A stretch of 64,000 bases of DNA, taken from contig NZ_JBANRJ010000001.1 of assembly GCF_037154075.1 (NCBI RefSeq), forward strand, positions 1,037,501-1,101,500. Reading direction: 5' to 3'. Shown piece by piece: positions 6,781 to 43,180 of the stretch. Position numbers and translations under genes: made by a program. The notes beneath the pieces are model-generated. The model worked only from the letters and a program-made list of their open reading frames with translations, was not told the DNA's origin and ran no database searches. The DNA is from Sphingobium aromaticiconvertens (lineage in GTDB: Bacteria; Pseudomonadota; Alphaproteobacteria; Sphingomonadales; Sphingomonadaceae). Numbering within the stretch: the stretch's first letter is position 1; every line of letters begins with the position of its first letter.

Positions 6781-7509
6781 TCATATCGACCAGCCGCCGT
6801 CGATATTGTGAATCTGTCCCGTAGTATAGGTTGCGCCCGCCAGATAGACGACCAGATCGGCGATTTCCTCTGCCTGACCCAGCCGTCCAATCGGCTGCCG
6901 CGCGACGAAGGCGGCACGGGTTTCCTCATAATCCCCCTGCGCCGCCAGCCGCGCGTTAAGCGAAGGCGTGTCGACCGTACCGGGACAGATGGCGTTGCAG
7001 CGAACGCCCATTCCCACATAATCGGCGGCCACTGCCTTGGTCAGGCCGATTACCGCTGCTTTGGTCACGCCATAGACGAAGCGATTGGGCACGCCCTTCA
7101 CGCTGGAAGCGACCGAGGCCATGTTGATGATGGCGCCTTCGCGCCGATCGATCATGCCGGGCAGGCAAGCGCGGATCATCCGGGTCATCGCCTTGATGTT
7201 CAGGGCATAGGCAAAGTCGAGATCGTCGTCGGAGGCTTCCAGCAGCGTCCCGCTATGGACTACGCCCGCGCAGTTGAACAGGATGTCCGCGCGGGCCATC
7301 CGGTCGGCCATGCCGTCGATGGCGGCCGGGTCCAGCACGTCCAGCCGCGCCGTTTCCACCGACGCACCGCTCAGTCCTTCCAGAGCGTCTTCGTCGATAT
7401 CGGTGGCGATGACATGCGCGCCCGCTTGCGCCAGCGCCAGGACGGAAGCACGGCCTATGCCATGGGCGGCGGCGGTGACGAGGGCGGTCTTGCCCGACAG
7501 GTCGATCAC
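6781..7509 (-). CDS. SDR dehydrogenase, 2-keto-3-deoxy-L-fuconate/rhamnonate dehydrogenase type
   Basis: NAD(P)-dependent short-chain dehydrogenase of 242 residues. The cofactor motif is TAAAHGIGR, followed by an acidic residue pattern (VIATDID) that favours NAD. NCAG is present, then the Ser-Tyr-Lys triad (MASVASS, YGVTK). The stretch RCNAICPGTVDTPSL is typical of the subgroup that oxidises C4 of 2-keto-3-deoxy-L-fuconate or -rhamnonate in the non-phosphorylated 6-deoxyhexose pathway. A close paralogue lies at 22775-23515. It follows the Gfo/Idh gene by 12 bases in the long minus-strand operon. The general class is secure and the exact substrate is inferred. Confidence 0.85.
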   Translation of the reverse strand: MIDLSGKTALVTAAAHGIGRASVLALAQAGAHVIATDIDEDALEGLSGASVETARLDVLDPAAIDGMADRMARADILFNCAGVVHSGTLLEASDDDLDFAYALNIKAMTRMIRACLPGMIDRREGAIINMASVASSVKGVPNRFVYGVTKAAVIGLTKAVAADYVGMGVRCNAICPGTVDTPSLNARLAAQGDYEETRAAFVARQPIGRLGQAEEIADLVVYLAGATYTTGQIHNIDGGWSI

Positions 7510-7521
7510 GATTTGGCTCTC

Positions 7522-8571
7522 CTAATATCCGGGCACAGGCGTGCCGGGGCGGGTGTTGGATTGATAACAGGCCTCGACCAGCGCCATGCTGTGCCAGGCA
7601 TCCTCGACATGGGTGGCGAGGCGGTCATCCTCCCCCGCGGTAAAGCGCTGGAGATTGGCCATCGGGCCGATGAACGCGTCGGGAAACCAGCCGCCGTCCA
7701 GCGAATGTTGTTCCCATGGTCCGCCACGCGGGGCAGTCCATAATTCATCTGCCTCGCCGGTGGGATAGTCGAGCAACAGGCCGAGCTTGATCATCGCCGC
7801 GCCCTGCGTCCCTTCGATGCGGAAGGCCGCGTCCTGGAAACGACGGCCAAAATCATGATGATGATTGATCGACAGGACCGCGCGCAGCGCACTGCCATAG
7901 TCCAGTATCGCGCTGGTGCGCGTGTCCGCCAGCGGGCTGGACGGATGGCCGTAGCTGCGTGCCATCACTGCCAGGGGATTGCCCGCCAGCGCACGTATCG
8001 CATCCAGATAATGGATCGAATGCGACACGATTTCCACGCGCGGATTGGCATTGAGATGGGGGAACAGATGCCATGGCGTGACGAGGTTGATATGGACCTC
8101 AATCTCGACCAGTTCGCCCAGATCGCCGCGCGTGATCGCATCGGCGACCGCCAGCATCATCGGTGCATAGCGAAGCTGGAAATTGACGGCGGCGATCAGC
8201 CGTCGGTCCCGGCATAGCTGCCGGATCGCGGTTGCTTCGGCCAGGTCCAGCCCCATCGGCTTCTGCAACAATATGCTTGCGCCTTCGGGCAGGGCGGACA
8301 GGATAGCCCGATGCGCGACCGGCGGCGCAGCCACGTCGAATATGGCATCCGCCGCCGCCGCTTCCTCCAGCGATCCAAAGACGATCGGCACATTCCACGC
8401 ATCAGCCAGTTCCTGCGCCCGGTGTCGATCGGTATCGAACAGGCCCGCGACGACGAACCCCGCCTTGCGATAGGCTGGCAGATGCGCGTCGCGCACGATC
8501 CCGCCTGCACCGATGATGACGATGGGCCGGGGCGCCGTCGGCATCGGCCAATGTTGCTGCAGGGCGCTCAT
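7522..8571 (-). CDS. Gfo/Idh/MocA-family oxidoreductase
   Basis: Cytoplasmic NAD(P)-dependent sugar or sugar-acid dehydrogenase of 349 residues. The N-terminal Rossmann fold has the dinucleotide motif IIGAGGIVRDAHLPAY. The family's EKP-like loop appears here as LLQKPMGLDL, where the Lys-Pro is kept but the usual Glu is Gln. The C-terminal alpha/beta domain contains SHSIHYLDAIRAL with the His residues expected near the active site. The ATG overlaps the preceding stop (ATGA). Placed between an ABC importer and an SDR, it probably oxidises or epimerises an imported sugar. The substrate is not recognisable. Confidence 0.85.
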   Translation of the reverse strand: MSALQQHWPMPTAPRPIVIIGAGGIVRDAHLPAYRKAGFVVAGLFDTDRHRAQELADAWNVPIVFGSLEEAAAADAIFDVAAPPVAHRAILSALPEGASILLQKPMGLDLAEATAIRQLCRDRRLIAAVNFQLRYAPMMLAVADAITRGDLGELVEIEVHINLVTPWHLFPHLNANPRVEIVSHSIHYLDAIRALAGNPLAVMARSYGHPSSPLADTRTSAILDYGSALRAVLSINHHHDFGRRFQDAAFRIEGTQGAAMIKLGLLLDYPTGEADELWTAPRGGPWEQHSLDGGWFPDAFIGPMANLQRFTAGEDDRLATHVEDAWHSMALVEACYQSNTRPGTPVPGY

Positions 8572-9761
8572 ACGATCTGCTCTGCGCGCGTCTGTGCCTG
8601 CGCCAGCAACTGCGCAGTCGGCGCGTTACTGGTCATCGCCTGGCCCAGCATGTCATCGACGATCTGCGATATCGCCGCCAGATGCGGCGTCAAAGGCATC
8701 TGGCGGGCATGATCGTGCAGCCAGTCGAGCCGGTGGTAATAGGGGATCATGGCGTTGATGTCCGGATCGCTCCAGGTCGACCGGCGCACGCCGATAGCGC
8801 CTTCCATCGCCGTGATCCGGTCCATCGGCGCGCTGGCGCAATGGCGCAGGAAATCCCAGGCCAGCGCCTTGTGCCGCGACCCCGAACCGATGCCCAGCAC
8901 CCAGAAGACGTTGAGCGATACGCTCTGGCCGGACGGGCCAGCGGGCAGGGGAGCGACATCCACCAGCCCGCGCACCCGGCTGTCGTCGGCCGTGTCGGCA
9001 TAGGCGGCGAAACCGAACCAGTTGGCCATCAGGGCAACCTTGCCCTGCGCGAACAACATGCCCGACGCGACGCTGTCCAGCGTCCGCGCATCGGGCGCGA
9101 TCGCCCCGTCATCGGCCGCCAGCGCGCGCAGATAATCAAGCGCCGCATGGGCCGGGCCGCTGGTGAAATCCGGGCGTCCGGCCGCGTCGAACGGCTCGCC
9201 GCCCCGCGACCAGATGTGGATGCAGAAATCGTAGAAGCCGTTATGCCCATCGGGAAACAACGCCAGCACGGTTCCGTACAGATCGTCCTGCGGCCGGTGC
9301 AGCGCTCGCGCCGCCGCATGATAATCATCCCATGTCCGGGGCACGTCCAGCCCGGCGGCGTCCAGCAGGTCGCGGCGGTAGATCAGGCATTCCGGTCCGT
9401 CATGATAGGGCATCCCCCAATAGCCGCCGGCAAAGCGCTGCATGCCCGTTAGCGACGGACTCCAGGCCTGCGGAAAGTCCGGCACTGGCGCGCGTGTCAT
9501 GTGCGGCGCCAGATCCTCCAGCAGACCCGCCGCTTGCGCTTCGGCCAGCCAGTCGGTCGCCATGAAGGCGATGTCCCACGCGCCGCTGGCAAGGCCGCGC
9601 TGGCCGATGATGCTCTCATGCAGCGGATTGAGGTCCATCGGCACCGCCTCGATCGACGCATCGATGCCTGTGACCGCCAGGAAGTCGGCAAATTGTTTGA
9701 TGATGGCGCTCTCGAACGGCCCGAACCGCCGGACGGCGACGCGCAGCGTGGGGGGGGTCAT
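8568..9761 (-). CDS. Solute-binding-like protein (family 1) without signal peptide
   Basis: About 397 residues with the fold signatures of family-1 extracellular solute-binding proteins: GGYWGMPYHDGPECLIYRRD, LLDAAGLDVPRTWDDY and LNVFWVLGIGSGSRHKALAW. The protein begins directly with the first beta strand (MTPPTLRVAVRRFGPF) and has no export signal. The start is fixed by an ATGA overlap with the permease stop and there is no upstream in-frame signal segment. Family-1 proteins normally pair with MalFG-type permeases, yet this one follows an RbsC-type permease that already has its own Peripla_BP_4 partner. It may be a cytoplasmic ligand-binding protein. A second signal-less member is at 16808-17920. 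Confidence 0.8.
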   Translation of the reverse strand: MTPPTLRVAVRRFGPFESAIIKQFADFLAVTGIDASIEAVPMDLNPLHESIIGQRGLASGAWDIAFMATDWLAEAQAAGLLEDLAPHMTRAPVPDFPQAWSPSLTGMQRFAGGYWGMPYHDGPECLIYRRDLLDAAGLDVPRTWDDYHAAARALHRPQDDLYGTVLALFPDGHNGFYDFCIHIWSRGGEPFDAAGRPDFTSGPAHAALDYLRALAADDGAIAPDARTLDSVASGMLFAQGKVALMANWFGFAAYADTADDSRVRGLVDVAPLPAGPSGQSVSLNVFWVLGIGSGSRHKALAWDFLRHCASAPMDRITAMEGAIGVRRSTWSDPDINAMIPYYHRLDWLHDHARQMPLTPHLAAISQIVDDMLGQAMTSNAPTAQLLAQAQTRAEQIV

Positions 9762-10915
9762 GCCGCTGCTCCCTGTGCGGAAGGGGGTGGGGAGGTGTCG
9801 GCTTTTGCCGGACGCCGCGCCCGGCCCGCGCCCACCGTGTAGATCGCCGCCGCCGTGATCACGACGATGCCTTCGATAAGCCCCTGATAGTTGGCGCCCA
9901 GGTTGAGGATGTTGAACCCGTTGGTCAGGGTGAAAAGCAGGAAAGCGCCGACCACGGTCTTCAACACGCTGCCAGCGCCCCCCAGCAGCGATGTGCCACC
10001 CAGGATCGCGGCGGCGATCACCGTCAGTTCCGTCCCCTGCAGCGCGGTCGGGTTGATCGCTCCCAGACGGCAGCCGAACAATATCCCCGCAAAGCCCGCG
10101 GCGGCGCTGGACAGAACGAAAGCGCCGATGCGGTAGGCGTCGACATTTATGCCCGACAGCCGGGCCGCCTCCGCATTGCCGCCCACCGCATAGATGCGGC
10201 GGCCCATGACGGTGAAGCGCAGCACGAAGCCGATCAGACAGGTGAACAGTGCCAGATAGAGGACTGGCGCGGCGAGGCTGAGGCCGGGACCGGCCGCCAA
10301 AGCCACCGCGCCCAGCGCCGCGCCGCCCAGCACCGTCGGCCCGTGCCGCCGCCATGCGCCGAGCGCGAGAAGCACTCCTGCAAGGATCAGCATCGGCCAG
10401 AAGGCGGCGATGCGCGTACTCTCAAACGCCAGCATCTGCGCCAGCACCTGCGGCTGCTCGACCATCAGCGATCGCCCGTCGGTCAGGATTAACACCAGCC
10501 CCCGCACGGCGGTCAGCGTGCCCAGCGTGACGATGAAGGCGTTAATGCCGACGAACTGGACGATCGCGCCATTGAGCAGCCCGATCGCGGCGGCGGTGCA
10601 GAGCGCGGCGACGGCGGCGGGTACGAAGCCGATCTGACCCGCCAACGCAACCAGCACCGCCGCCGCCAATGCCGCCACTGACGCCACCGACAAGTCAAAG
10701 GCGCCGGTGATCAGCATCACCGTCATGGCAACACCCATGATGCCGACCAGCGCAGCCTGATAGGCGATATTGCCCAGATTCTGGCCGCTGATATAGGCGG
10801 GCAGGCCGCGGTTGGCGGCGATCGCGGCCAACACCGCGATCAGCAGCGCCAACGCATAATAGACGCCGGCTTCGCGCAATCCGAAGATGCGACGCCAGTC
10901 GGTAGGGGCGGTCAT
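9758..10915 (-). CDS. Sugar ABC transporter permease (RbsC/BPD_transp_2 family)
   Basis: Inner-membrane permease of 385 residues with about ten hydrophobic segments. It carries the family features FDLSVASVAALAA in the second third and the late EGIVVITAAAIY segment. GGNAEAARLSGINVDAYRI is the conserved cytoplasmic loop that contacts the ATPase. It probably forms a homodimer. The gene overlaps its ATPase and the following gene by ATGA. It resembles ribose, galactose and rhamnose-type importers, and the neighbours suggest a pentose or deoxyhexose substrate. Confidence 0.92.
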   Translation of the reverse strand: MTAPTDWRRIFGLREAGVYYALALLIAVLAAIAANRGLPAYISGQNLGNIAYQAALVGIMGVAMTVMLITGAFDLSVASVAALAAAVLVALAGQIGFVPAAVAALCTAAAIGLLNGAIVQFVGINAFIVTLGTLTAVRGLVLILTDGRSLMVEQPQVLAQMLAFESTRIAAFWPMLILAGVLLALGAWRRHGPTVLGGAALGAVALAAGPGLSLAAPVLYLALFTCLIGFVLRFTVMGRRIYAVGGNAEAARLSGINVDAYRIGAFVLSSAAAGFAGILFGCRLGAINPTALQGTELTVIAAAILGGTSLLGGAGSVLKTVVGAFLLFTLTNGFNILNLGANYQGLIEGIVVITAAAIYTVGAGRARRPAKADTSPPPSAQGAAA

Positions 10916-12405
10916 GGGGCAACTCCCTGAACAGGATCGGGCCGACGTCCGCCGCCGGCGATGAGGAGGAGGTCGGCTTCGTCCACGCGGTCAGGATCGA
11001 CGTCGGCGACCACATGGCCGTCGCGCATCACCAATATGCGGTCGCAGATAGCGATCAGCTCGGCAAATTCGGACGAAACCAGCAAGACCGGGAGGCCGTC
11101 GTCGGCCAGTGAACGGATCAGCCGCAATATGTCGGTGCGCGCGCCGATGTCGATCCCGGCGGTCGGCTCGTCCAGCATCAACACACGCGTGCGCGGCTTC
11201 AGCCATTTGGCGATCACCACCTTCTGCGCGTTGCCGCCTGACAGATCGGTCGGCAGGGCGTCTATATCCTTCGCCCGGATCGCCAGTTGCGCGACCGCTT
11301 CGGCGGCGTGTGCGCGTTCGTCGCGCGATGGCTTTATGAACCCGCCGGGGTCGGCCAGCGCGATATTGTCGGCCAGCGACAGCAACGGGACATAGCCCTG
11401 TTTCGCCCGATCCTCCGGCACCAGCGCCAATCCGGCAGCGACTGCCTCGTCGGTGCGATGCAGGACGGATTGTTTGTCGACCAGCACCGTGCCGGTGGCA
11501 TCGCGATCAGCGCCGAAAATGGCATGCAGCAATTCGCTGCGTCCCGATCCCAGCAGGCCCGCCAAGCCGATAATCTCGCCTGCGCGCAACATGAAGCTGG
11601 TGGGAGCCAGCCGCCCCGGCGCGGCCAGATCGCGCACCTCCAATATGGCGTCGCCGAAGGCGCGCTTATGGCCGTCGCGCTGCAGGGCCTGCACCGCGCG
11701 CCCGGCAATGGCGTCGGCCACGGCCTTTTCACTGAGCTGCGCGGTCGGCGCGTTCAGGACCGCCCGACCGTCGCGCAGGACCGTGACGCAATCGGTCAGG
11801 GCGATGATCTCGTCGATGAAGTGGGAAATGAACAGCACCGTCCGGCCCTCTGCCTTCAACCGGCGAATGGTGGCATAGACATTGTCGCGCTCATGGCCTG
11901 CGAGCGAAGCGGTCGGCTCGTCCATGATGATGAGTTGCGCATCGGCCGCCAGCGCCTGAACGATGGCGACCATCTGCCGCTTGCCGATCGGCAGGTCGGC
12001 GACCAGCCCATCAAGCGGAAAGGGGTTGCCCAGATCGTCGACGATGGCCTGCACATGATCCCGCGCGACCAGATCGCGACGCCACAGGCCGGAACGGTCG
12101 AGCTGGATATTCTCGATCGCGGACAGGGTCGGGACCAGCGGTACATGCTGGTAGATGGTGGCGATGCCCGCCGCCCTGGGTGCGGCGGGGCCGGTCCACG
12201 TGACGGGCGCGCCCTGCCATTCCATCCGGCCGTCGCTGGGTTGCAGGGCGCCCGCCAATATTTTGATCAGCGTCGACTTGCCCGCGCCGTTGGCGCCCAG
12301 CAGGCCATGGACCGTGCCCGGCGCGACGGTCATGTCGACGCCCTTCAGCGCGGCGGTGCCGTTGGGGTAGGTCTTGGCCAGCCCCTGCAGGGTCAGGATG
12401 GGCAT
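10912..12405 (-). CDS. Sugar ABC transporter ATP-binding protein (RbsA/MglA/XylG type)
   Basis: Tandem ATPase of about 497 residues with two nucleotide-binding domains. The first has Walker A GANGAGKSTL and Walker B LIIMDEPTAS. The second has the degenerate Walker A GLLGSGRSEL usual for this family, the signature LSGGNAQKV, and Walker B VLMLDEPTAGID. The ATG at 12405 forms a TGATG overlap with the preceding stop. An ATG two codons earlier (12411) is also possible. It energises the permease encoded directly downstream. Confidence 0.93.
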   Translation of the reverse strand: MPILTLQGLAKTYPNGTAALKGVDMTVAPGTVHGLLGANGAGKSTLIKILAGALQPSDGRMEWQGAPVTWTGPAAPRAAGIATIYQHVPLVPTLSAIENIQLDRSGLWRRDLVARDHVQAIVDDLGNPFPLDGLVADLPIGKRQMVAIVQALAADAQLIIMDEPTASLAGHERDNVYATIRRLKAEGRTVLFISHFIDEIIALTDCVTVLRDGRAVLNAPTAQLSEKAVADAIAGRAVQALQRDGHKRAFGDAILEVRDLAAPGRLAPTSFMLRAGEIIGLAGLLGSGRSELLHAIFGADRDATGTVLVDKQSVLHRTDEAVAAGLALVPEDRAKQGYVPLLSLADNIALADPGGFIKPSRDERAHAAEAVAQLAIRAKDIDALPTDLSGGNAQKVVIAKWLKPRTRVLMLDEPTAGIDIGARTDILRLIRSLADDGLPVLLVSSEFAELIAICDRILVMRDGHVVADVDPDRVDEADLLLIAGGGRRPDPVQGVAP

Positions 12406-13424
12406 CACCATTGGCCGACACACGCATCGACATTGGCGCGGGTGACGGCGGGGATGGGATAGGTCAGAAAACGGTCGCCTCCTGCCTTTGCGCCGTTGGC
12501 GGCGCGATGCAGCGCGGCGAAGGCAAGCGCGCCCAACGCTTCTGGCTTGAAACAGACGGTGCCGTCCACGGCCCCGGCCTTGATCGACGCGATCGCCAGC
12601 CGCGATCCGCCGACCCCGATGAGCCGCGCCTTCGACCCGGCGGCGCGCACCGCGCGGGCGCATCCGATCACCATGTCGTCGGCCTCATTGAAGATCAGGT
12701 CGATCCGGGGTTGGGCGGTCAGGATATTCTGGCAGGCCGCCTCGCCCCCCTGCGACGACCAGTTGCCGGGTTGAGAGGCCATAATGCGATAGAGGATGCC
12801 CGCCTTGTCCAGCGCCTGCCGGAACCCGCGCGCCCTTTGTTCGACTTCCGGGAAACCGGCGGCGCCCTCGATTACCGCTATCCGTGCCGGTCGGCCGGTC
12901 GGCAGCAGGCGCGCGGCGAGCTGGCCGGCCGCTTCGCCCGCCGTCACCTCGTCCTGCGATACCAGCGCGGTCAGCCCCGGATAGACGTCGCGCACCGATC
13001 GTTTGCGCGGATCGCCGATCAGTGCTGCGACCGACACGACCGGAATCGCCTGCCGCCCGATGCGGTCGACCCAGCCCTGCGCCACTACGGAATCGATCGG
13101 CATGATCGCGATGCCTTTGGCGCGCTGGGCGATCAGGTCGTCAATATCATTGGCCTGCTTTTGTACGTCGCCCTTGGCGTCAAGCACGACCGCCATAGCG
13201 CCCGCGCGCGCGGCGGCGTTGCTGAATCCCTTGGCGATGGCGGCGGCGAATGGATAGCTGAGGCCCACGGTGGACAGGCCGTACCGGTCCCCGCCGACCT
13301 GCACAGGGGGGGAGGCGGGGCGGCCCGCCTGCACCGTCTGCCGCACCGCGATGAGCGATGCGCCCGCGATCAGCAGGACGACCAGCGACAGCGCGCGCAG
13401 GACATGACGGCTCCGCAATATCAT
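12405..13424 (-). CDS. Periplasmic sugar-binding protein (Peripla_BP_4, RbsB-like)
   Basis: About 339 residues. A hydrophobic export segment (VLRALSLVVLLIAGASLIA) precedes a LacI/RbsB-type binding fold: GLSYPFAAAIAKGFSNAA, then AQRAKGIAIMPIDS, VSQDEVTAGEAAGQLAA, IAVIEGAAGFPEVEQRARGF and IDLIFNEADDMVIG. It is the canonical partner of the ATPase and permease that follow. The start is ATG at 13424, five bases after the MaoC stop. The ligand is unknown. Confidence 0.9.
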   Translation of the reverse strand: MILRSRHVLRALSLVVLLIAGASLIAVRQTVQAGRPASPPVQVGGDRYGLSTVGLSYPFAAAIAKGFSNAAARAGAMAVVLDAKGDVQKQANDIDDLIAQRAKGIAIMPIDSVVAQGWVDRIGRQAIPVVSVAALIGDPRKRSVRDVYPGLTALVSQDEVTAGEAAGQLAARLLPTGRPARIAVIEGAAGFPEVEQRARGFRQALDKAGILYRIMASQPGNWSSQGGEAACQNILTAQPRIDLIFNEADDMVIGCARAVRAAGSKARLIGVGGSRLAIASIKAGAVDGTVCFKPEALGALAFAALHRAANGAKAGGDRFLTYPIPAVTRANVDACVGQW

Positions 13425-13428
13425 GGTT

Positions 13429-13881
13429 TCAGGCGGCCGCGTCGCGCCGCAGGACCAGATACAGATGCTCGCACGCCAGCACGGTTTCGTCGCGCTGGTT
13501 GCGGATGTCGACCGCTTCGGTGACGACGCCATGGTCGATCCGCTTGGCGTGGTCGCGCTTGTCGGCGATGCGGGTGATCGTGTGGATCGTGTCGCCGATA
13601 TGGACCGGGCGGATGAAGCGCAGCCGGTCATAGCCATAGGACATGGCATGGGGGTTGATGACCGTGGCGGTCAGGCCGATGCCGATGCTGAAGATCATCG
13701 TGCCATGGGCGATCCGCTGGCCGATATCCTGTGTCGCGCACCAGTGGGCATCCATATGGTGCGGGAAGAAATCGCCGGTATGGCCAGCATGGACGACGAA
13801 ATCGGTTTCGGTGATCGTGCGGCCGAAGCTCCGGCGTTCCGACCCGATATCATAGTCCTCGAAATACTGTTCCACGATCAT
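13429..13881 (-). CDS. MaoC-family (R)-specific enoyl-CoA hydratase/dehydratase
   Basis: Hot-dog-fold protein of 150 residues. The MaoC hydratase motif region is present as [11 protein letters not shown], where the expected catalytic Asp/His pair can be placed. [17 protein letters not shown] is the conserved helix, and [17 protein letters not shown] is the terminal strand pair. It would hydrate or dehydrate a CoA thioester. The gene overlaps the interrupted CoA-transferase by ATGA and precedes the ABC importer by four bases, so an imported acid is probably activated to a CoA ester and processed here. The substrate is unknown. Confidence 0.85.
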
Positions 13882-14327
13882 GCGGCACCTGTGATGTCTG
13901 ACTGGATGGCCTGGCTGTCGGCGCCCAGTCGGGGCGCCGCGCGTTCGTTCTTGATGATCCGGCCATCGATGCGAATGGGGCAGCGGGTCAGCGACAGGGA
14001 CGCGCCATCAGGCGACGTGACGGACTGCACCGCGTCCAGCGCGGCAAAGCCGGGGTCGGCGATCAGCGTTGGCCAGTCCAGCACCGGCGCGGCCCAGATG
14101 CCGGCAGGTTCGAGCCGCGACAGCCAGTGGGCGGTGGATTGGCCAACGAGATGATCGCGCAGCCGCGCCTTGATCGCGTCGCGATCCGCGAACCAGCGGT
14201 TTGGCGCGAAATCGGTCAGATCGGCGCAGTCGATCAGCGCGCCCAGCCGGTCGACCGGCGCCATGGCCAGCGCCATATGGCCGTCCGCCGTCCGATAGAT
14301 GCCATAGGGCGCGGCCAGATAGCCCGC
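13878..14327 (-). pseudogene. CaiB/BaiF CoA-transferase, C-terminal part (IS-interrupted)
   Basis: C-terminal 150 codons of a class III CoA-transferase. It resumes at KAGYLAAPYGIYRTADGH, which matches the equivalent segment of the intact paralogue at 17920-19068 (YLAAPYGVYRTRDGW). It continues through WLSRLEPAGIWAAPVLDWPT to the end. The N-terminal part lies at 15975-16703 beyond an IS1380-family element. A GTG just inside the insertion could start a truncated product, but this would lack the CoA-binding Rossmann domain and the catalytic Asp. Confidence 0.85.
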
Positions 14328-14345
14328 CTTATTCACCAAAAGTGT

Positions 14346-15843
14346 CCTGAAGGGTTGGCGGGAGTGGCGTAAGCCTCTGATCTGAATTAGGAACTGGGTG
14401 TCTAAGCCGAACCTGCCGCAGGGCAGAAAATGCCACGGGCCACACCCGCCATGAACGATGATATCGCAAGCTCATTTGGATTCCCAGCAGTCGGCCGCAA
14501 GAAAATCACAGCTGCGTTCGACGGTGGCCGGCTTACCTCGGATGGCGGTGTTCTACTGCTTGCACAGGCCGAGCGCGCGATGGGGATTTGCCAGCGCCTG
14601 GCGGCTTGTATTGCCGATCCGCGCGATCCAGCGCGGGTGATCCATCGCCTGGATGACATTCTGCGTGCCCGTGTGTTCGCGATTGCGTGCGGCTATGAGG
14701 ATGCCGATGATCTCGATGCTCTGCGCGACGATCCAGGCTTCCGCCTGGCGCTCGGCAAGCTGCCGGAATCGGGCGCGGGGCTGGCCAGCCAACCGACGAT
14801 GAGCCGGTGGGAAAATGCACCGACTACGCGCGAACTGGCCAGCATGATGGCCGCGATGATCGACATCTACTGCGCCAGCTATCCCGCCCCTCCGACAGCG
14901 GTCACGCTGGATATCGACGACACGTGCGACGTCGTGCATGGCTATCAACAGCTCTCGTTCTGGAACGGGCATCATGGGGAGCGCTGCTTCCTACCGATCC
15001 ATATCTACGACACCGCGACCGGCAGGCCGGTGGCCATGCTGCTGCGCACAGGCAAGACGCCTTCTGGAAAGGAGGCGGCGGGGCACATCCGACGCCTGGT
15101 GCGTCACCTGCGCCGTAATTGGCCCGATACCCACATCACTATCCGCGGCGACGGGCACTATGGTCGACCCGAGGTCATGGCCTACTGCGATGCGGCCCGC
15201 GTCGATTACGTGTTCGGCCTGCCCACCAATTCAGCGCTGCGCGCCGATCCCGCCATTGTTGCGGTCGCCGATGCCTGCGCGGTCAAGCGCGCCCAGCGTC
15301 AGTGTCCCGTCCTGCGCAACTATGCCGAGACCCGCTATGGGGCAAAGACCTGGAAGTGCCAGCGTCGCGTCGTTGCACGGATCGAGGCCAGCACGCTGGG
15401 CATGGACATCCGCTATGTCGTCACCTCGTTGGCAACAGGATCGGCCGAGCACATCTACGACACGCTCTACTGCGCGCGTGGTCAGGCCGAGAACCTGATC
15501 AAGCGCCACAAGTCCCAGCTCGCCAGCGACCGAACCTCGTGCCGCTCGGCCAATGCCAATCAGATGCGCCTGATACTGCACACTGCCGCATACTGGCTGC
15601 TATGGCGCATCCAGCAGGCGATGCCCAGGACCGCTGCTCTGGCAAGCGCGGAGTTTACCACCTTGCGCCTGCGGCTGCTCAAGGTCGCTGCGCGCGTCGT
15701 AGAAAGTGCTAGCCGCATCCGCATTGCCTTCGCTTCCGCCTGTCCGGATGCCGACCTGTTCCGCGCCCTCGTTCTCCGGCTGAAGCCTGCGCCGACGTAG
15801 CCCATGCGGCAGCGCCGCAGAACTCCGAGCCCAGCCCTTCAAC
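14346..15843 (+). mobile_element. IS1380-family insertion sequence
   Basis: An element of about 1.5 kb carries one transposase gene. Candidate terminal repeats are CCTGAAGGGTTGGC at 14346-14359 and the complement of 15830-15843 (GTTGAAGGGCTGGG), matching at 10 of 14 positions with a shared GAAGGG core. No clean short target duplication is visible next to these ends. A second, outer inverted pair CTTATTCAC (14328-14336 and complement of 15955-15963) would give about 1.64 kb. The exact boundaries are therefore unresolved. Confidence 0.75.
14430..15800 (+). CDS. IS1380-family DDE transposase
   Basis: Transposase of 456 residues. The start [23 protein letters not shown] and ERAMG are typical of the IS1380 N-terminus. 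The catalytic DDE acids can be placed at [19 protein letters not shown] and in the C-terminal [15 protein letters not shown] signature (Glu of EN). A WLL-type hydrophobic segment near residue 390 and a basic C-terminus are also typical. The frame is intact, so the element may be active. Start ATG 14430 is used; ATG at 14451 is an alternative. Confidence 0.95.
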
Positions 15844-15974: not shown

Positions 15975-16703
15975 GTTGGCATTGGCCACCGCGCTACGCT
16001 GGGGCATGTCGCCCCCGCGATTGAGATAAACAGCCAGATGCTCGAATTGCAGGTCGATGGCGGTTTCGATCAGGCTCACATCGACGCGCCCGCCTTCGCC
16101 AGTCACGCCCCGGCGCACCAGCAGGGCAAGGATGCCCTGCACCAGTTGCGCGCCCGCCATCATGTCGGTGATGGACAGCCCGGCGGGGATGGGCGGTCCG
16201 TCGCCATTCCCCGTCAGCCAGGCGATGCCCGACAGCGATTGGACCAGCAGGTCCTGCCCCGGCCGGTCGCGCCATGGTCCTTCCGGGCCATAACCACTGA
16301 CCCCGGCATAGACGAGGCGCGGATTGACGGCGCTGACCTGATCCCAGCCCAGCCCCAGCCGGTCCATGATGCCGGGGCGAAAATTGTGGATCAGCACATC
16401 GGCGCGCGCCACCAACCGCAGCACCATCGCCAGATCGTCGGCGTCCTTCAGGTCGGCGGTCAGGCTCTGCTTGCCCCGGTTGATGGCATGAAACAACGCG
16501 CTGTCCCGATCGAACGCCAGGTCGGCAAGGTAGAGATTGCGGCTGGCGTCGCCGCCGTCGGGCCGTTCCACCTTGATGACCCGCGCGCCCAGATCGCCCA
16601 GCCGCAGTGCTGCCGAAGGTCCAGCCAGAAACTGGCTGAAATCCAGGATCGTCACGCCTTCCAGGGGAAGGGACATCGGTCGATCGCTGTTGCCCGCTGA
16701 CAA
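15975..16703 (-). pseudogene. CaiB/BaiF CoA-transferase, N-terminal part (IS-interrupted)
   Basis: First 243 codons of a class III CoA-transferase: [44 protein letters not shown] and [12 protein letters not shown]. The catalytic Asp is in [10 protein letters not shown]. Homology stops after SAVANAN, where the insertion begins. The likely start is TTG at 16703, backed by GAGAGGGTGG just upstream; an ATG at 16676 lacks such a site. It is first in the long minus-strand operon, so the insertion probably reduces or reroutes transcription of everything to 5085. It is closest in the window to the protein at 17920-19068. Confidence 0.85.
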
Positions 16704-16751: not shown

Positions 16752-16807
16752 GGCTATGGATACGGCCATAGTGAGTCAACAGATTTCGTGGCCGGGAGAG
16801 AGTATCT

Positions 16808-17920
16808 GTGCGAGGCATGACATGGGACCATCCGCGCGGTTATGATCCGCTGGCGGCGGCCACGCGCGAATGGCGGGCGCAGACCGGGCAGGACATCCAG
16901 TGGGATCGCCGCTCGCTGCAGGATTTCGAGACATTTTCGGTCGAGGAACTGGCGCGTCAATATGATCTGATCGTGATCGATCATCCCCATGTCGGGCAGG
17001 TCGCCGACGCCGGATGCCTGCTGGCGCTCGATACAGTCTGCGATCCCGCGTCGCTGGCCGCCATCGCCGCCGGGTCGGTCGGCGCCTCCTTTCCCAGCTA
17101 TCACTGGAAGGACCATCAATGGGCGCTGCCGATCGATGCGGCGACGCAGGTGCAGTCCTGGGTGCCGGGCAGGTTGCCGGGGCCGGTGACGACATGGGAT
17201 GCGGTGATGGCCCTTGCCGGGGCGGGAGGGATCGCGCTCGCCCTGCGCCCGCCCCATTCACTGATGTCGCTCTTCACCCTGTGCGGGCTTCAGGGACTGA
17301 CCCTCGACGTGACGGGGGTGGACCTTTTCCCACCCGAAGCGCGGCTTGCCTATCAGCGCCTGTCGCAACTGGTCGCGCTGCTCGATCCGCAGGCCTATGA
17401 TCAGGACCCGATCGCCGTGCTGGAGGCGATGGGCGAGGCGCGATCCCGCATTGCGGCGTCGCCGCTGATCTACGGTTATGTCAGCTATGCGCTGGAGGAT
17501 TTCCGCGACACGCGCATCGCCTTCCACGACCTGCCCCTCGTCGGTGCGGCCGGTCCCGCCGGATCGGCGCTGGGCGGCACCGGCATTGCGGTTTCGGCTA
17601 ATAGCGAACACCGGGACGAAGCCGCCGCCTTCGCCCTGTGGGTCGCGAGCGGTCCCATCCAGACGCGCGTCTATGCGCCATCTGGCGGTCAGCCCGGTCA
17701 TGCGCAGGCGTGGGAGGATGCGGCGCTCAACCGCCAGACTATGGATTTCTACACCGCCACACGTGCGACGTTGGACGGGGCCTGGCTGCGGCCGCGCCAT
17801 GCGGGCTATATGGGTTTTCAGCAGCAGGCATCTGATCGCCTCAATGACGCCCTGCGTGGTGGCGAGGATGCGGACGGGACGATCGCCGCGCTGAACCGGC
17901 TGTACCGGGCCAGCCTTTGA
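16808..17920 (+). CDS. Signal-less solute-binding-like protein coupled to CoA-transferase
   Basis: About 370 residues, beginning with MRGMTWDHPRGYDPLAAATR, i.e. at the first strand of a family-1 solute-binding fold with no signal peptide. Later features are QYDLIVIDHPHVG, HWKDHQWALPIDAATQ (the usual YGLPYxxD-like element), FHDLPLVGAAGPAG and GGTGIAVSANSEHRDEAAAFALW. The stop overlaps the start of a CaiB/BaiF CoA-transferase (TGATG), implying translational coupling and perhaps a complex. With no export signal it should be cytoplasmic, so transport is an unlikely role; sensing or presenting an acyl substrate is possible. Function is unknown. Confidence 0.75.
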   Translation: MRGMTWDHPRGYDPLAAATREWRAQTGQDIQWDRRSLQDFETFSVEELARQYDLIVIDHPHVGQVADAGCLLALDTVCDPASLAAIAAGSVGASFPSYHWKDHQWALPIDAATQVQSWVPGRLPGPVTTWDAVMALAGAGGIALALRPPHSLMSLFTLCGLQGLTLDVTGVDLFPPEARLAYQRLSQLVALLDPQAYDQDPIAVLEAMGEARSRIAASPLIYGYVSYALEDFRDTRIAFHDLPLVGAAGPAGSALGGTGIAVSANSEHRDEAAAFALWVASGPIQTRVYAPSGGQPGHAQAWEDAALNRQTMDFYTATRATLDGAWLRPRHAGYMGFQQQASDRLNDALRGGEDADGTIAALNRLYRASL

Positions 17921-19068
17921 TGGAGGCCGATCCATTGCCGCCGGACCTGCCCCTTGACGGCTTGCTGGTGCTCGACATGGCGCAATTTCTGTCGGGACCG
18001 TCCGCCGCCCTGCGTCTCGCGGATCTGGGCGCGCGGGTCATCAAGGTGGAGCGACCGGGCGCGGGCGATATCTGCCGCAGCCTTTACCTGACCGATACCG
18101 ATATCGGCGGCGATTCGACCCTGTTCCACGCAATCAACCGCAACAAGGAGGGGATCGCGCTCGACTATCGGATGGAGGCCGACCGCGAAACGCTGTTCCG
18201 GCTGGCCGATCGCGCCGATGTCGTGATCCAGAATTTCCGGCCCGGCGTCGCGGACCGGCTGGGCATCGGGCCAAAGGCGCTGGGTGCGCGAAACCCCCGC
18301 CTCGTCGTCGGCACCATATCGGGCTATGGCGAGGATGGACCATGGGCCGGATGGCCGGGACAGGATCTGTTGGCGCAGGCCCTGTCGGGCGCGATGTGGC
18401 TGAGCGGCAGCGCCGACGACGGGCCGGTGCCCTTCGGCCTGTCGGTCGCCGACATGCTCGCCGGTCATCTGCTCACCGAAGGCCTATTGGCTGCGCTGGT
18501 TCGCCGGAGCATCAGGGGACAGGGCGCCCATGTCGAAACCAGCCTGCTGGAAGCGATGATCGATTTCCAGTTCGAGGTGCTGACCACCCATCTCAACGAT
18601 GGCGGACGCCTGCCCCGGCGGGCGCAGGTGCGCAACGCCCATGCCTATCTCGCCGCGCCCTATGGGGTCTATCGCACGCGCGACGGTTGGCTGGCGCTGG
18701 CGATGACGCCTTTGCCTCGATTGGAGGAGGCGTTCGCTATCCCGCTCGCGGGGGACGCCTTTCGCGACCGCGATCGGCTGCGTCAGCTCCTGGCCGATCG
18801 CATCGCGCAGGAGGATAGCGAAAGCTGGCTTGCGACGCTGCGAGCGCGCGACATCTGGTGCGCGCCGGTGCTGGACTGGCCACAACTGATGGCGGACGAA
18901 GCCTTCCGCCGGCTGGAGATGCTGCAACCCATCGGGCGGGACGGCGACACATTGATGACCACGCGCTCACCGCTGCGCTTCGACGGGCTGCGGGCGCGCA
19001 ACGGTCGCGGCGCCCCGCATGTCGATCAGCATGGCGCCGCCATCCGCCGGGAAATGGGCGAGGCCTGA
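17920..19068 (+). CDS. CaiB/BaiF (class III) CoA-transferase
   Basis: Cytoplasmic enzyme of 382 residues that would move CoA between carboxylic acids. Motifs: [70 protein letters not shown]. The catalytic Asp is near residue 178 in GLSVADMLAG. The C-terminal domain has YLAAPYGVYRTRDGWLALAM and DIWCAPVLDWPQL. It is the intact sister of the IS-split gene in the divergent operon, and it may take over that role or once formed a heteromer with it, as BbsEF does. The start ATG overlaps the preceding stop. The substrate is unknown. Confidence 0.9.
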   Translation: MEADPLPPDLPLDGLLVLDMAQFLSGPSAALRLADLGARVIKVERPGAGDICRSLYLTDTDIGGDSTLFHAINRNKEGIALDYRMEADRETLFRLADRADVVIQNFRPGVADRLGIGPKALGARNPRLVVGTISGYGEDGPWAGWPGQDLLAQALSGAMWLSGSADDGPVPFGLSVADMLAGHLLTEGLLAALVRRSIRGQGAHVETSLLEAMIDFQFEVLTTHLNDGGRLPRRAQVRNAHAYLAAPYGVYRTRDGWLALAMTPLPRLEEAFAIPLAGDAFRDRDRLRQLLADRIAQEDSESWLATLRARDIWCAPVLDWPQLMADEAFRRLEMLQPIGRDGDTLMTTRSPLRFDGLRARNGRGAPHVDQHGAAIRREMGEA

Positions 19069-41191: not shown

Positions 41192-41962
41192 TCAGCGCCG
41201 CTGGAATTTGGGCGCGCGCTTTTCGGCGAAGGCGGCGCGCCCTTCGGCGGCGTCAGCGGTTGCGAAGCAGATCGCCTGCAGGTCACGCTCATATTCGATC
41301 GCCTTGTCGAACGGCATCTGGTGCGCCGCGCGCAGGTTCAGCTTGGCGGTTTCGGCGGCGATCGGCGCGCGCTGTGCGATCGTGGCAGCGATGGTGACGG
41401 CGCGCGGCATCAACTCGCCGGGGGGCACGACCGCGCTCACCAGTCCCCATGCCAGCGCGCGGTCGGCATCCACCATGTCGCCGGTCAGGATCATCATCGC
41501 CGCGTTGGACATGCCGGCGGAATGGGCAAGGCTGACCGCCATGCCGCCGCCGCCGATCCAGCCCAGCTTGATTTCCGGCGCGGCGAAGCGGGCGTTGGTG
41601 GAGGCGATGCGTATGTCGCAGGCCATCGCCGTTTCCAGCCCTCCACCCAGCGCATAGCCGTTGATCGCCGCGATCACCGGCTTGCGGCACCCGCGCAGCG
41701 CGTCGCAATAATCCTGGCGGTTGCGGAAGTCCCAGGGCGTCGCATAGCCGTCCAGCGTCGATATGTCGGACCCGACCGAAAAGGCGCGATCACCCGCGCC
41801 GGTGACGATCACGCAACGTACGGCATCCGATCCGTTGCAGTGGGCCACCGCCTCGACCAGCGCCTGCGCCATGTCCGGAGTCATGGCGTTCAGCTTGTCC
41901 GGCCGATTAATGGTAATGGTCGCGATGCGATCGGCGATGGCGACGGTCAATTGAGCGTTCAT
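41192..41962 (-). CDS. Enoyl-CoA hydratase/isomerase family protein
   Basis: Crotonase-fold enzyme of 256 residues: TITINRPDKLNAMT, the oxyanion-hole strands RAFSVGSDIS and INGYALGGGLETAMACDI, then FAAPEIKLGWIGGGGMA. The usual catalytic Glu pair of true hydratases is not evident: the second position reads WIGGGG. Isomerase, lyase or decarboxylase chemistry is therefore as likely as hydration. It lies 27 bases after a CoA-transferase gene, so it probably acts on the CoA ester that enzyme makes. Confidence 0.87.
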   Translation of the reverse strand: MNAQLTVAIADRIATITINRPDKLNAMTPDMAQALVEAVAHCNGSDAVRCVIVTGAGDRAFSVGSDISTLDGYATPWDFRNRQDYCDALRGCRKPVIAAINGYALGGGLETAMACDIRIASTNARFAAPEIKLGWIGGGGMAVSLAHSAGMSNAAMMILTGDMVDADRALAWGLVSAVVPPGELMPRAVTIAATIAQRAPIAAETAKLNLRAAHQMPFDKAIEYERDLQAICFATADAAEGRAAFAEKRAPKFQRR

Positions 41963-41989: not shown

Positions 41990-43180
41990 TCAGCCATGCT
42001 GGCGCACGACGCCGGATTCGACCAGTTGTGCGATCTCGTCGTCGCTCCGCCCGATTTCGCGCAGCACGTCCGCGCTATGTTCACCGACCAGCGGGGCGCC
42101 GCGCGTGACCGTGGAGGGCGTGCGCGAAAAGCGGATGGGAAAGCCCGGCGTCTTGACCCGGCCCTCGGTCGGATGGTCATATTCCACGAAGGTGCCATTA
42201 TGCCGTATCTGCGGATCGTCGATCAGGTCGGCATAGCCATAGACCGGCCCCGCCCATATGTCGGCGGCGCGAAATATCGCCAGCCAGTCGGCGCTGTCGC
42301 GGGTTGGCAGATGTTCCTTCAGCCGGGCGAAGATCGCGTCGCGCTGGGTCCAGCCATCCTTTTCCTCGTCCATGTCGGCAAAGAAGGGATCGTCCAGCAC
42401 CTCGCCTAGCTTGCGCAGCGACGCCATCGCCAGCGTGATATAGCCATCGCGCGTACTGAAAACGCCATAGGGCGCGCGGATATAGCTGTGTGCGTGGCGT
42501 TCGGCCGATCGCGTCTGCGGCTTGCCGCCGACGGTGAACACCGACAATTCCTGCATCTGGATGGTAGTGATCGCGTCGAGCATGTTGACCTGCACCAACT
42601 GCCCCTCGCCGGTGCGTTCGCGGTGGAACAAGGCGGCAAGCGCGCCCTCGAACGCCGAATAAGCGGTGATCGCGTCGACCAGATACTGGCCGGCGGGAGC
42701 AGGCGGTTCGCCCTCGGCCCCGGCGGACAGCATCGCCCCGGACATGCCTTGCAACAGCAGGTCCTGCCCCGGATAGCTGCGATAGGGACCATCCTCGCCA
42801 TAACCCGACATGGAAATATAGATGAGGCGCGGGTTGATCGCGGAAAGTGTCGCATAATCGACGCCCAGTCGCTCGGCCACGCCCGGCCGGTAATTTTGCA
42901 GGAACACATCCGCCCCGCGCACCAGGTCGATCAGGACCGTCTTTCCTTCCGCCGCCTTCAGGTCGATGGCCAGCGACCGCTTGTTCCGGTTCAGCGACAG
43001 GAAGGACACGTTGATCTGATTGCCCGTCGCGCCGCCCGCCGCAGCGTGCCGTTGCCATTCGCCGCTGGTCGGTTCCACCTTTATGACGTCCGCGCCCATG
43101 TCGCCCAACCGCTGGGCGGCGAACGGGCCAGCCATCGCAATCGAACAGTCGATGACCCGAATATCCTTCAATATGCTCAT
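41990..43180 (-). CDS. CaiB/BaiF (class III) CoA-transferase
   Basis: CoA-transferase of 396 residues: VIDCSIAMAGPFAAQRLGDMG, ADVIKVEPTSGEWQR, LQNYRPGVAERLGVD, SMSGYGEDGPYRSYPGQDLLL. The probable catalytic Asp is in GQYLVDAITAY. The C-terminal domain has IRAPYGVFSTRDGYITLAM and ADIWAGPVYGYADL. It diverges from the two CoA-transferases at 15975-19068 and so probably has a different substrate. It is followed by a crotonase and preceded by an SDR in the same operon. Confidence 0.9.
   Translation of the reverse strand: MSILKDIRVIDCSIAMAGPFAAQRLGDMGADVIKVEPTSGEWQRHAAAGGATGNQINVSFLSLNRNKRSLAIDLKAAEGKTVLIDLVRGADVFLQNYRPGVAERLGVDYATLSAINPRLIYISMSGYGEDGPYRSYPGQDLLLQGMSGAMLSAGAEGEPPAPAGQYLVDAITAYSAFEGALAALFHRERTGEGQLVQVNMLDAITTIQMQELSVFTVGGKPQTRSAERHAHSYIRAPYGVFSTRDGYITLAMASLRKLGEVLDDPFFADMDEEKDGWTQRDAIFARLKEHLPTRDSADWLAIFRAADIWAGPVYGYADLIDDPQIRHNGTFVEYDHPTEGRVKTPGFPIRFSRTPSTVTRGAPLVGEHSADVLREIGRSDDEIAQLVESGVVRQHG

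Follow-up and report, generated by a model that had tools for sequence, protein, structure and literature searches.

The window analysed here is a stretch of 64,000 nucleotides from Sphingobium aromaticiconvertens (NCBI RefSeq assembly GCF_037154075.1, contig NZ_JBANRJ010000001.1, positions 1,037,501 to 1,101,500 of the forward strand); coordinates are counted from its first letter, and L, G and P numbers are our handles for loci, genomes and database proteins. It encodes a family-1 solute-binding-fold protein devoid of a signal peptide (SBP1), followed on the same strand by a CaiB/BaiF family III coenzyme A (CoA)-transferase (CoA-T A). As described in the first-pass annotation of the sequence, the two genes overlap in a TGATG at 17918-17922, which combines the stop codon of SBP1 with the ATG of CoA-T A (17920); the list of open reading frames also holds an in-frame TTG at 17917, one codon before this ATG. 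Divergently from SBP1, a minus-strand operon runs from 16703 to 6781 in the order CoA-T B, MaoC, RbsB, RbsA, RbsC, a second signal-less binding-fold protein (SBP2), Gfo/Idh and SDR (Table 1). The partnership of SBP1 with CoA-transferases is probably an undescribed piece of sugar metabolism.

The assignment of SBP1 to the family-1 binding fold rests on a Pfam match to SBP_bac_8 (34.5 bits, cut-off 27) and on a predicted structure that takes the form of an ordinary sugar-binding fold across the whole length; no second domain was found in the Pfam scan. That the protein starts directly at the mature domain, as claimed earlier, is borne out by the DNA. Upstream of its GTG (16808) there are 11 open codons and then a TGA at 16772, with no other in-frame ATG, GTG or TTG by eye, and therefore no signal peptide can be added. 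Gene starts in databases can be mis-set, but the leader test is independent of them; it was made on in-frame starts in the DNA 12-60 codons before the domain, and a hydrophobic extension was detected in only 1 of 68 SBP1 loci (window included). The exception is L048, where the likely start follows the hydrophobic stretch and whose close relative L047 has 4 open codons only. In all 120 listed SBP1 database entries (the window's own included), at most 22 residues, none hydrophobic, precede the first conserved motif. An overlooked leader peptide was thus rejected by the upstream-frame tests, with L048 as the single flag among the 68, and the homologues are not exported, in agreement with the cytosolic location proposed in the first pass.

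The family is strongly conserved. A comparison of 23 diverse SBP1s shows 31 invariant positions, among them W6, R10, D58, H59, P60, D110, R328 and P329, and the window's protein is 58-59% identical to members from Phyllobacterium, Brucella endophytica and Skermanella. Alignment with maltose-binding protein is local only (residues 7-139, probability 50.8%); four of the eight aligned positions that we take, from maltose-binding protein, to be sugar contacts are invariant in SBP1 (R10, D58, P60 and A112), which is suggestive only. Among 8000 scored candidates, 4012 matched SBP1 at E <= 0.001, a count that also includes ordinary binding proteins.

Importers are found near SBP1 in the window and in rhizobia, each with its own leader-bearing binding protein, and a hydrophobic leader was present in all five importer binding proteins tested from SBP1 clusters. 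In four stretches of 18-19 kb, from Rufibacter (L056), Persicobacter (L060 and L100) and Streptomyces (L057), five ATP-binding cassette (ABC) ATPase and permease queries, which could miss distant ABC types, gave no match at E 1e-3; two rhizobial stretches gave the expected matches. As ABC genes were not found in these four stretches, SBP1 is not simply an importer subunit.

The linkage of SBP1 to CoA-transferase genes was surveyed in several sets. The first (n = 40) comprised the window, 7 rhizobial loci, 20 of the 22 other loci found and 12 hand-picked plasmid stretches from 145 records, and carried a CoA-transferase on the same strand within 2.6 kb in 34 loci (the misses being L033, L034, L035, L049, L050 and L057). 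A fresh sample of 150 genomes from the order of G583 yielded 33 SBP1 matches in 23 genomes, of which 27 were new; a CoA-transferase was adjacent in 14 of these 27 and lay within 8 kb in 21. Among its 24 newly fetched loci, 13 had a same-strand CoA-transferase within 1.5 kb. Thirteen wider stretches, covering 10 of the 11 misses and 3 newly fetched matches (L119, which judging by its start nearly duplicates L118, was omitted), revealed one adjacent gene (L148) and, counting both strands, 7 further ones at up to 8 kb. No CoA-transferase was seen for L137, L140, L142, L143, L145 and L119 of this sample. In L034, L035, L142 and L145, the fetched stretches (near a contig end in L035 and L145) hold SBP1 relatives and no CoA-transferase, some of them beside sugar-acid dehydratase, SDR or peptide-type ABC genes; these are perhaps an SBP1 subfamily with another partner.

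When 54 loci with wide flanks were considered, a set that includes 13 stretches chosen for a missing or unseen CoA-transferase and excludes 13 adjacent cases of the fresh sample, a CoA-transferase was located within 8.5 kb of SBP1 in 46 and within 1.3 kb in 36 (42 and 32, respectively, of the 50 loci below 90% identity). By a rough estimate, a random gene would lie within 1.3 kb of a CoA-transferase in about 1% of cases, against 36 of 54 for SBP1; the estimate draws on the 15 CoA_transf_3 (PF02515) matches, some being fragments of one gene, in the 5.45 Mb of the window's genome. As a background control, the fucose-type exported binding protein proved unfit, since it shares these clusters (CoA-transferase within 1.5 kb in 4 of 11). 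Companions within 8.5 kb in the 54 loci were a MaoC or enoyl-CoA hydratase (42), an SDR (28), a Gfo/Idh protein (24) and a mandelate-racemase or UxuA-type dehydratase (23). Stop/start overlaps between SBP1 and the CoA-transferase, as in the window, also occur at L003, L004, L041, L053 and L054; in some loci the two genes are 4-7 kb apart, and in L138 and L139 they are on opposite strands. Furthermore, SBP1 (E <= 1e-30) and CoA-T A (E <= 1e-75) occur in one identical set of 13 genomes out of 299 drawn from the phylum, and SBP1 and CoA-T C (E <= 1e-120) in the same 5 of 149 genomes of the family. Such co-occurrence shows joint inheritance rather than contact, because cassette transfer of neighbouring genes can give the same pattern.

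Table 1. Genes of the SBP1 locus and of related operons in the window
Feature	Position	Strand	Remarks
SBP1, signal-less family-1 solute-binding-fold protein	16808..17920	+	370 aa, GTG start
CoA-T A, CaiB/BaiF family III CoA-transferase	17920..19068	+	382 aa, conserved Asp present
CoA-T B, N-terminal part	15998..16703	-	CoA_transf_3 positions 1-215
CoA-T B, C-terminal part	13878..14339	-	CoA_transf_3 positions 224-365
Transposase gene, DDE_Tnp_1_4 (PF13701)	14430..15800	+	inserted in CoA-T B; outside the system
MaoC-type hydratase/dehydratase	13429..13881	-	150 aa; 82-91% identical counterparts in L036, L037, L041, L042
RbsB-like exported sugar-binding protein	12405..13424	-	hydrophobic leader, Kyte-Doolittle (KD) 2.92
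RbsA-like sugar ABC ATPase	10912..12408	-	profile match
RbsC-like permease	9758..10915	-	profile match
SBP2, second signal-less family-1 solute-binding-fold protein	8568..9758	-	SBP_bac_1 110.1 bits (Pfam)
Gfo/Idh/MocA sugar dehydrogenase	7522..8571	-	recurs near SBP1/SBP2 in rhizobial, Bacteroidota and haloarchaeal loci
SDR dehydrogenase	6781..7509	-	64-72% identical in L001, L002, L004, L006, L007
CoA-T C, second-operon CoA-transferase	41990..43180	-	counterpart has SBP1 directly downstream in 3/5 family genomes
Enoyl-CoA hydratase downstream of CoA-T C	41192..41962	-	27 bp from CoA-T C, no SBP1 between

CoA-T A belongs to the family III CoA-transferases, with a full-length CoA_transf_3 match of 313.2 bits. 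An aspartate, which we take to be the catalytic residue of the family, is conserved in 33 of 34 SBP1-adjacent CoA-transferases (a gap in the remaining one) and aligns with an aspartate of 10uh and 4ed9. The protein scores below the curated NCBIfam equivalog cut-offs for the mesaconate, glutarate, oxalate, formyl and carnitine enzymes, the best score being 183.9 bits against 700. The first-pass annotation had placed a CoA-transferase and a MaoC dehydratase at the head of the divergent operon; a CoA-transferase gene does begin there, but it is split by a transposase gene, so that the strain is probably without a working copy of CoA-T B, an unbroken counterpart of which is found in L036 and L042. 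In the counterpart of the CoA-T C operon, SBP1 stands between CoA-T C and the enoyl-CoA hydratase in 3 of 5 genomes (L065-L067). When a fused query was used, the 120 listed matches consisted of 119 tandem CoA-transferase fusions (P0243-P0362 except P0352; 674-860 aa in length and relatives of CoA-T A, with Hymenobacter as the main named source besides Planctomycetota and Pelagicoccus) and one SBP1-CoA-transferase fusion, P0352. The preponderance of tandem fusions suggests that the paired CoA-transferases of the clade act together. P0352 has lost the last SBP1 helix and has an odd linker, and for this reason it may be a frameshift product and is given little weight.

The second signal-less family-1 protein noted earlier in the divergent operon, SBP2, is likewise corroborated. 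In 120 of 120 listed SBP2 database entries (the window's own included), at most 8 residues precede the first motif. Relatives (E <= 1e-60) were detected in 5 plasmid records, from Croceibacterium, Rufibacter, two Persicobacter and the haloarchaeon Halostagnicola larsenii; 64 positions are invariant over eight sequences, and the motifs PDGHN and NWxGF as well as R325 are kept from sphingomonads to the haloarchaeon. At >=37% identity, SBP2 occurs within 8.5 kb of SBP1 in 8 of the 54 wide loci. The cluster of H. larsenii (plasmid, L101 4927-10686) also encodes an alpha-L-fucosidase, an L-rhamnose mutarotase, an amidohydrolase, a CoA-transferase, an AMP-binding protein and MaoC.

Neighbourhoods in other lineages point to the pathway concerned. 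Rufibacter and Persicobacter (Bacteroidota) share the order SBP1, CoA-transferase, CoA-transferase, SBP2 and Gfo/Idh, then MaoC, together with a RhaT-type symporter; Persicobacter has an alcohol dehydrogenase (ADH) and an SDR between Gfo/Idh and MaoC, and in Persicobacter JZB09, SBP1, two CoA-transferases, SBP2, Gfo/Idh and MaoC were located by tblastn. Within 9 kb, the annotated Bacteroidota stretches, whose gene tables are incomplete, show no aldolase, FAH or mandelate-racemase gene. Streptomyces ITFR-6 carries SBP1, FAH, a CoA-transferase, an MFS transporter and MaoC. In the rhizobial and rhodobacterial loci, the module is accompanied by an IclR regulator, a sugar ABC importer, a mandelate-racemase-type dehydratase, an L-rhamnose mutarotase, Gfo/Idh and one MaoC gene or, in some, two; an SDR is present wherever enough flanking sequence is covered, and the Shinella locus adds a gene annotated as L-fuconate dehydratase. 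The order SDR, CoA-transferase, SBP1 and enoyl-CoA hydratase is found in Pseudosulfitobacter, where FAH occurs too, and on two Sinorhizobium plasmids, and on pSymB of Sinorhizobium meliloti 1021 the CoA-transferase/SBP1 pair is about 9.5 kb from a fucose-type sugar operon. Of the genes of L-fucose clusters, the mutarotase, dehydrogenase, lactonase-like amidohydrolase and sugar-acid dehydratase are named in rhizobial, rhodobacterial and haloarchaeal loci; the window's share of these is limited to dehydrogenases and an amidohydrolase of fuconolactonase-like type (157.5 bits against a cut-off of 400). These neighbours suggest that the sugars concerned are 6-deoxyhexoses in oxidised form, or related ones; judging from gene content, the module would therefore most likely activate sugar acids from an oxidative route for 6-deoxyhexoses of the L-fucose/L-rhamnose type.

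Elsewhere in the window, 20933-58606 forms a large polysaccharide-use region with GH28-like genes (one scanned, the others alike by eye), GH95, TonB receptors, an L-lactate dehydrogenase (flavin mononucleotide, FMN) and a DUF4432 protein; it looks like a locus for pectin or fucosylated side chains. The window also encodes a FAH-family protein.

At somewhat under an even chance, we favour the reading that SBP1 is an exported sugar-binding protein recruited to the cytosol, where it would be the ligand-binding partner that presents a sugar acid to a CoA-dependent module. This reading starts from the observed fold, the start at the mature domain, the conserved positions, the gene coupling, the co-occurrence, the conserved aspartate and the four stretches in which ABC genes were not found. 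From these we infer the ligand class, the contact between SBP1 and the CoA-transferase, the hand-over and the thioester reaction. The module would consist of one or two family III CoA-transferases, a hydratase (MaoC or enoyl-CoA hydratase), Gfo/Idh and SDR dehydrogenases and, in some lineages, SBP2. In such a scheme the sugar would be oxidised and delactonised to a polyhydroxy acid, around which (or around a related intermediate) SBP1 might close before passing it on to the CoA-transferase, which is translated in coupled fashion from the shared mRNA; the transferase would form the CoA thioester through its conserved aspartate, and the hydratase could then dehydrate or hydrate the 3-position. 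Presentation of a common sugar-acid intermediate is favoured because the invariant positions fit a ligand site that stays constant while hydratases and importers change. The first-pass annotation is accordingly confirmed in its observation and partly supported in its interpretation, the 'substrate-presenting or sensing subunit' being a role that we still infer.

Several results weigh against presentation. The survey proposed in the first pass was to look for obligatory CaiB/BaiF partners, and although the linkage proved strong and consistent, an obligatory partnership was rejected: no CoA-transferase lies within 8.5 kb in 8 of the 54 wide loci, of which L033, L035, L140, L143 and L145 are truncated by a contig end whereas the flanks of L034, L137 and L142 are complete (a second SBP1 locus in the genome of L137, G744, namely L149, does include a gene of the CoA-T A type), and the CoA-T C operon is without SBP1 in 2 of 5 genomes (window and G331, both with SBP1 at another locus). 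SBP1s that share about half of their residues with the window's protein are paired with CoA-T A types in some loci and with CoA-T C types in others (L005 and L062 versus L001), which suits a pathway-level role more than a tight complex. The fold model of P0352 (single chain, unpaired alignment of 35 rows; predicted template modelling score, pTM, 0.52) has a disordered linker and no confident domain arrangement. On pSymB of S. meliloti 1021 (L051 12833-13989), the CoA-transferase is in two reading frames and SBP1 is open, and therefore strain 1021 may lack the partner; in strain ml21 (L052) the CoA-transferase is annotated as one gene. Moreover, where a locus includes a sugar-acid dehydratase and an FAH hydrolase of its own, a CoA-free route is already available on paper.

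The strongest rival to presentation, and a serious one even if on balance unlikely, is catalysis: SBP1 (and SBP2) would be enzymes whose cleft has turned into an active site acting on a sugar acid or a CoA ester, as a lyase, epimerase or dehydratase. Other type-II periplasmic-binding folds have become enzymes, such as MqnA, HemC and Thi5. The conservation of SBP1 is strong for this fold, with R10, D58, H59, D110 and R328 among its invariant positions, and the motifs of SBP2 span bacteria and a haloarchaeon; catalysis would also account for the SBP1 loci without a CoA-transferase and for the pathway steps to which no gene is assigned in the Bacteroidota stretches. Nevertheless, no known catalytic motif was identified in SBP1, the model is that of an ordinary sugar-binding fold, and the translational coupling to the CoA-transferase in many loci needs no catalysis. 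A role in the cytosol by which SBP1 would sense or buffer a pathway intermediate, and so regulate the operon or the CoA-transferase, is improbable. The fold, the cytosolic location and the loci without a CoA-transferase would suit it, and NrtC-type ATPases offer a likeness in their cytosolic binding domain, but dedicated regulators (IclR, GntR, LacI) are already present in many SBP1 loci, a second domain was not found, and the frequent pairing is with a CoA-transferase and a hydratase. Slightly less probable still is co-inheritance only, with SBP1 and the CoA-transferase serving separate steps of one sugar pathway and never touching; the different CoA-transferase types, the occasional separation and the opposite strands of L138 and L139 agree with it, while the stop/start overlaps and the recurrence of the order CoA-transferase, SBP1 and enoyl-CoA hydratase in distant genera speak against it. 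An ordinary importer subunit with an overlooked leader, or a leaderless relic carried in sugar clusters, is very improbable: the clusters often include sugar ABC importers and Pfam groups SBP1 with extracellular binding proteins, but the leader is absent in 67 of 68 loci and from the listed entries, the importer binding proteins tested do carry one, four stretches gave no ABC match, and SBP1 is strongly conserved.

Among known systems, SBP1 has the fold of the family-1 importer binding proteins (MalE/LpqY/SmoF-type; SBP_bac_8/SBP_bac_1), but it lacks their leader, its frequent partners are a CoA-transferase and a hydratase, and ABC genes are undetected in the four stretches. CoA-T A resembles the CaiB/BaiF family III enzymes (formyl-CoA transferase, succinyl-CoA:mesaconate, succinate-glutarate, BbsEF) over its full length and keeps their aspartate, and the two-gene and tandem-fused forms found here recall the two subunits of benzylsuccinate BbsEF; unlike the named families, it is below the listed equivalog cut-offs and is coupled to a binding-fold protein, and we know of none among them that pairs with such a protein. 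The itaconate/mesaconate-type modules likewise combine a CoA-transferase and a MaoC hydratase in one operon, but the MaoC of the window (46.7 bits) is far below the cut-off of the RipB/Ich model (340 bits), and the neighbours here are sugar dehydrogenases and importers. Several loci combine the module with genes of the oxidative L-fucose/L-rhamnose (diketo-hydrolase) type, namely those for a mutarotase, Gfo/Idh, a lactonase-like amidohydrolase, a mandelate-racemase dehydratase and an SDR, and in some also for FAH, whereas the textbook route, to our knowledge, needs no CoA-transferase, MaoC or binding protein. Orphan binding proteins of the Bug/TctC type also occur beside CoA-transferase genes, often beside CaiB/BaiF genes in Burkholderiales, but they are another binding-protein family and are exported. 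A putative locus for rhamnose, comprising RhaM and six enzyme genes without an assigned role, is reported for Rhodobacteraceae (PMC5507952) and may or may not belong to the SBP1 module.

No description of the SBP1-CoA-transferase pairing was found in the literature searched, whose coverage mostly excludes subscription journals, and the arrangement is rated as a categorically new kind of system with a putative function. At close to an even chance, it would represent an undescribed CoA-dependent sugar-acid pathway, in which one or two cytosolic sugar-binding folds serve as subunits or enzymes alongside a MaoC or enoyl-CoA hydratase and CoA-transferases that come in pairs, in some cases fused in tandem, making CoA thioesters of 6-deoxyhexonates (L-fuconate, L-rhamnonate or alike) in Alphaproteobacteria, Bacteroidota, Actinomycetota and, with SBP2, haloarchaea. 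A conserved clade labelled 'extracellular solute-binding protein' appears not to be extracellular and, in some lineages, not to have an ABC transporter nearby. If SBP1 is a partner or enzyme of CoA-dependent sugar-acid breakdown, a widespread annotation would be corrected and a new use of a very common bacterial fold recognised, and there would be a concrete way into a 6-deoxyhexose pathway, as yet unassigned, that serves in the use of plant and algal polysaccharides. The presence of the pair on pSymB of Sinorhizobium meliloti makes this testable in a laboratory species.

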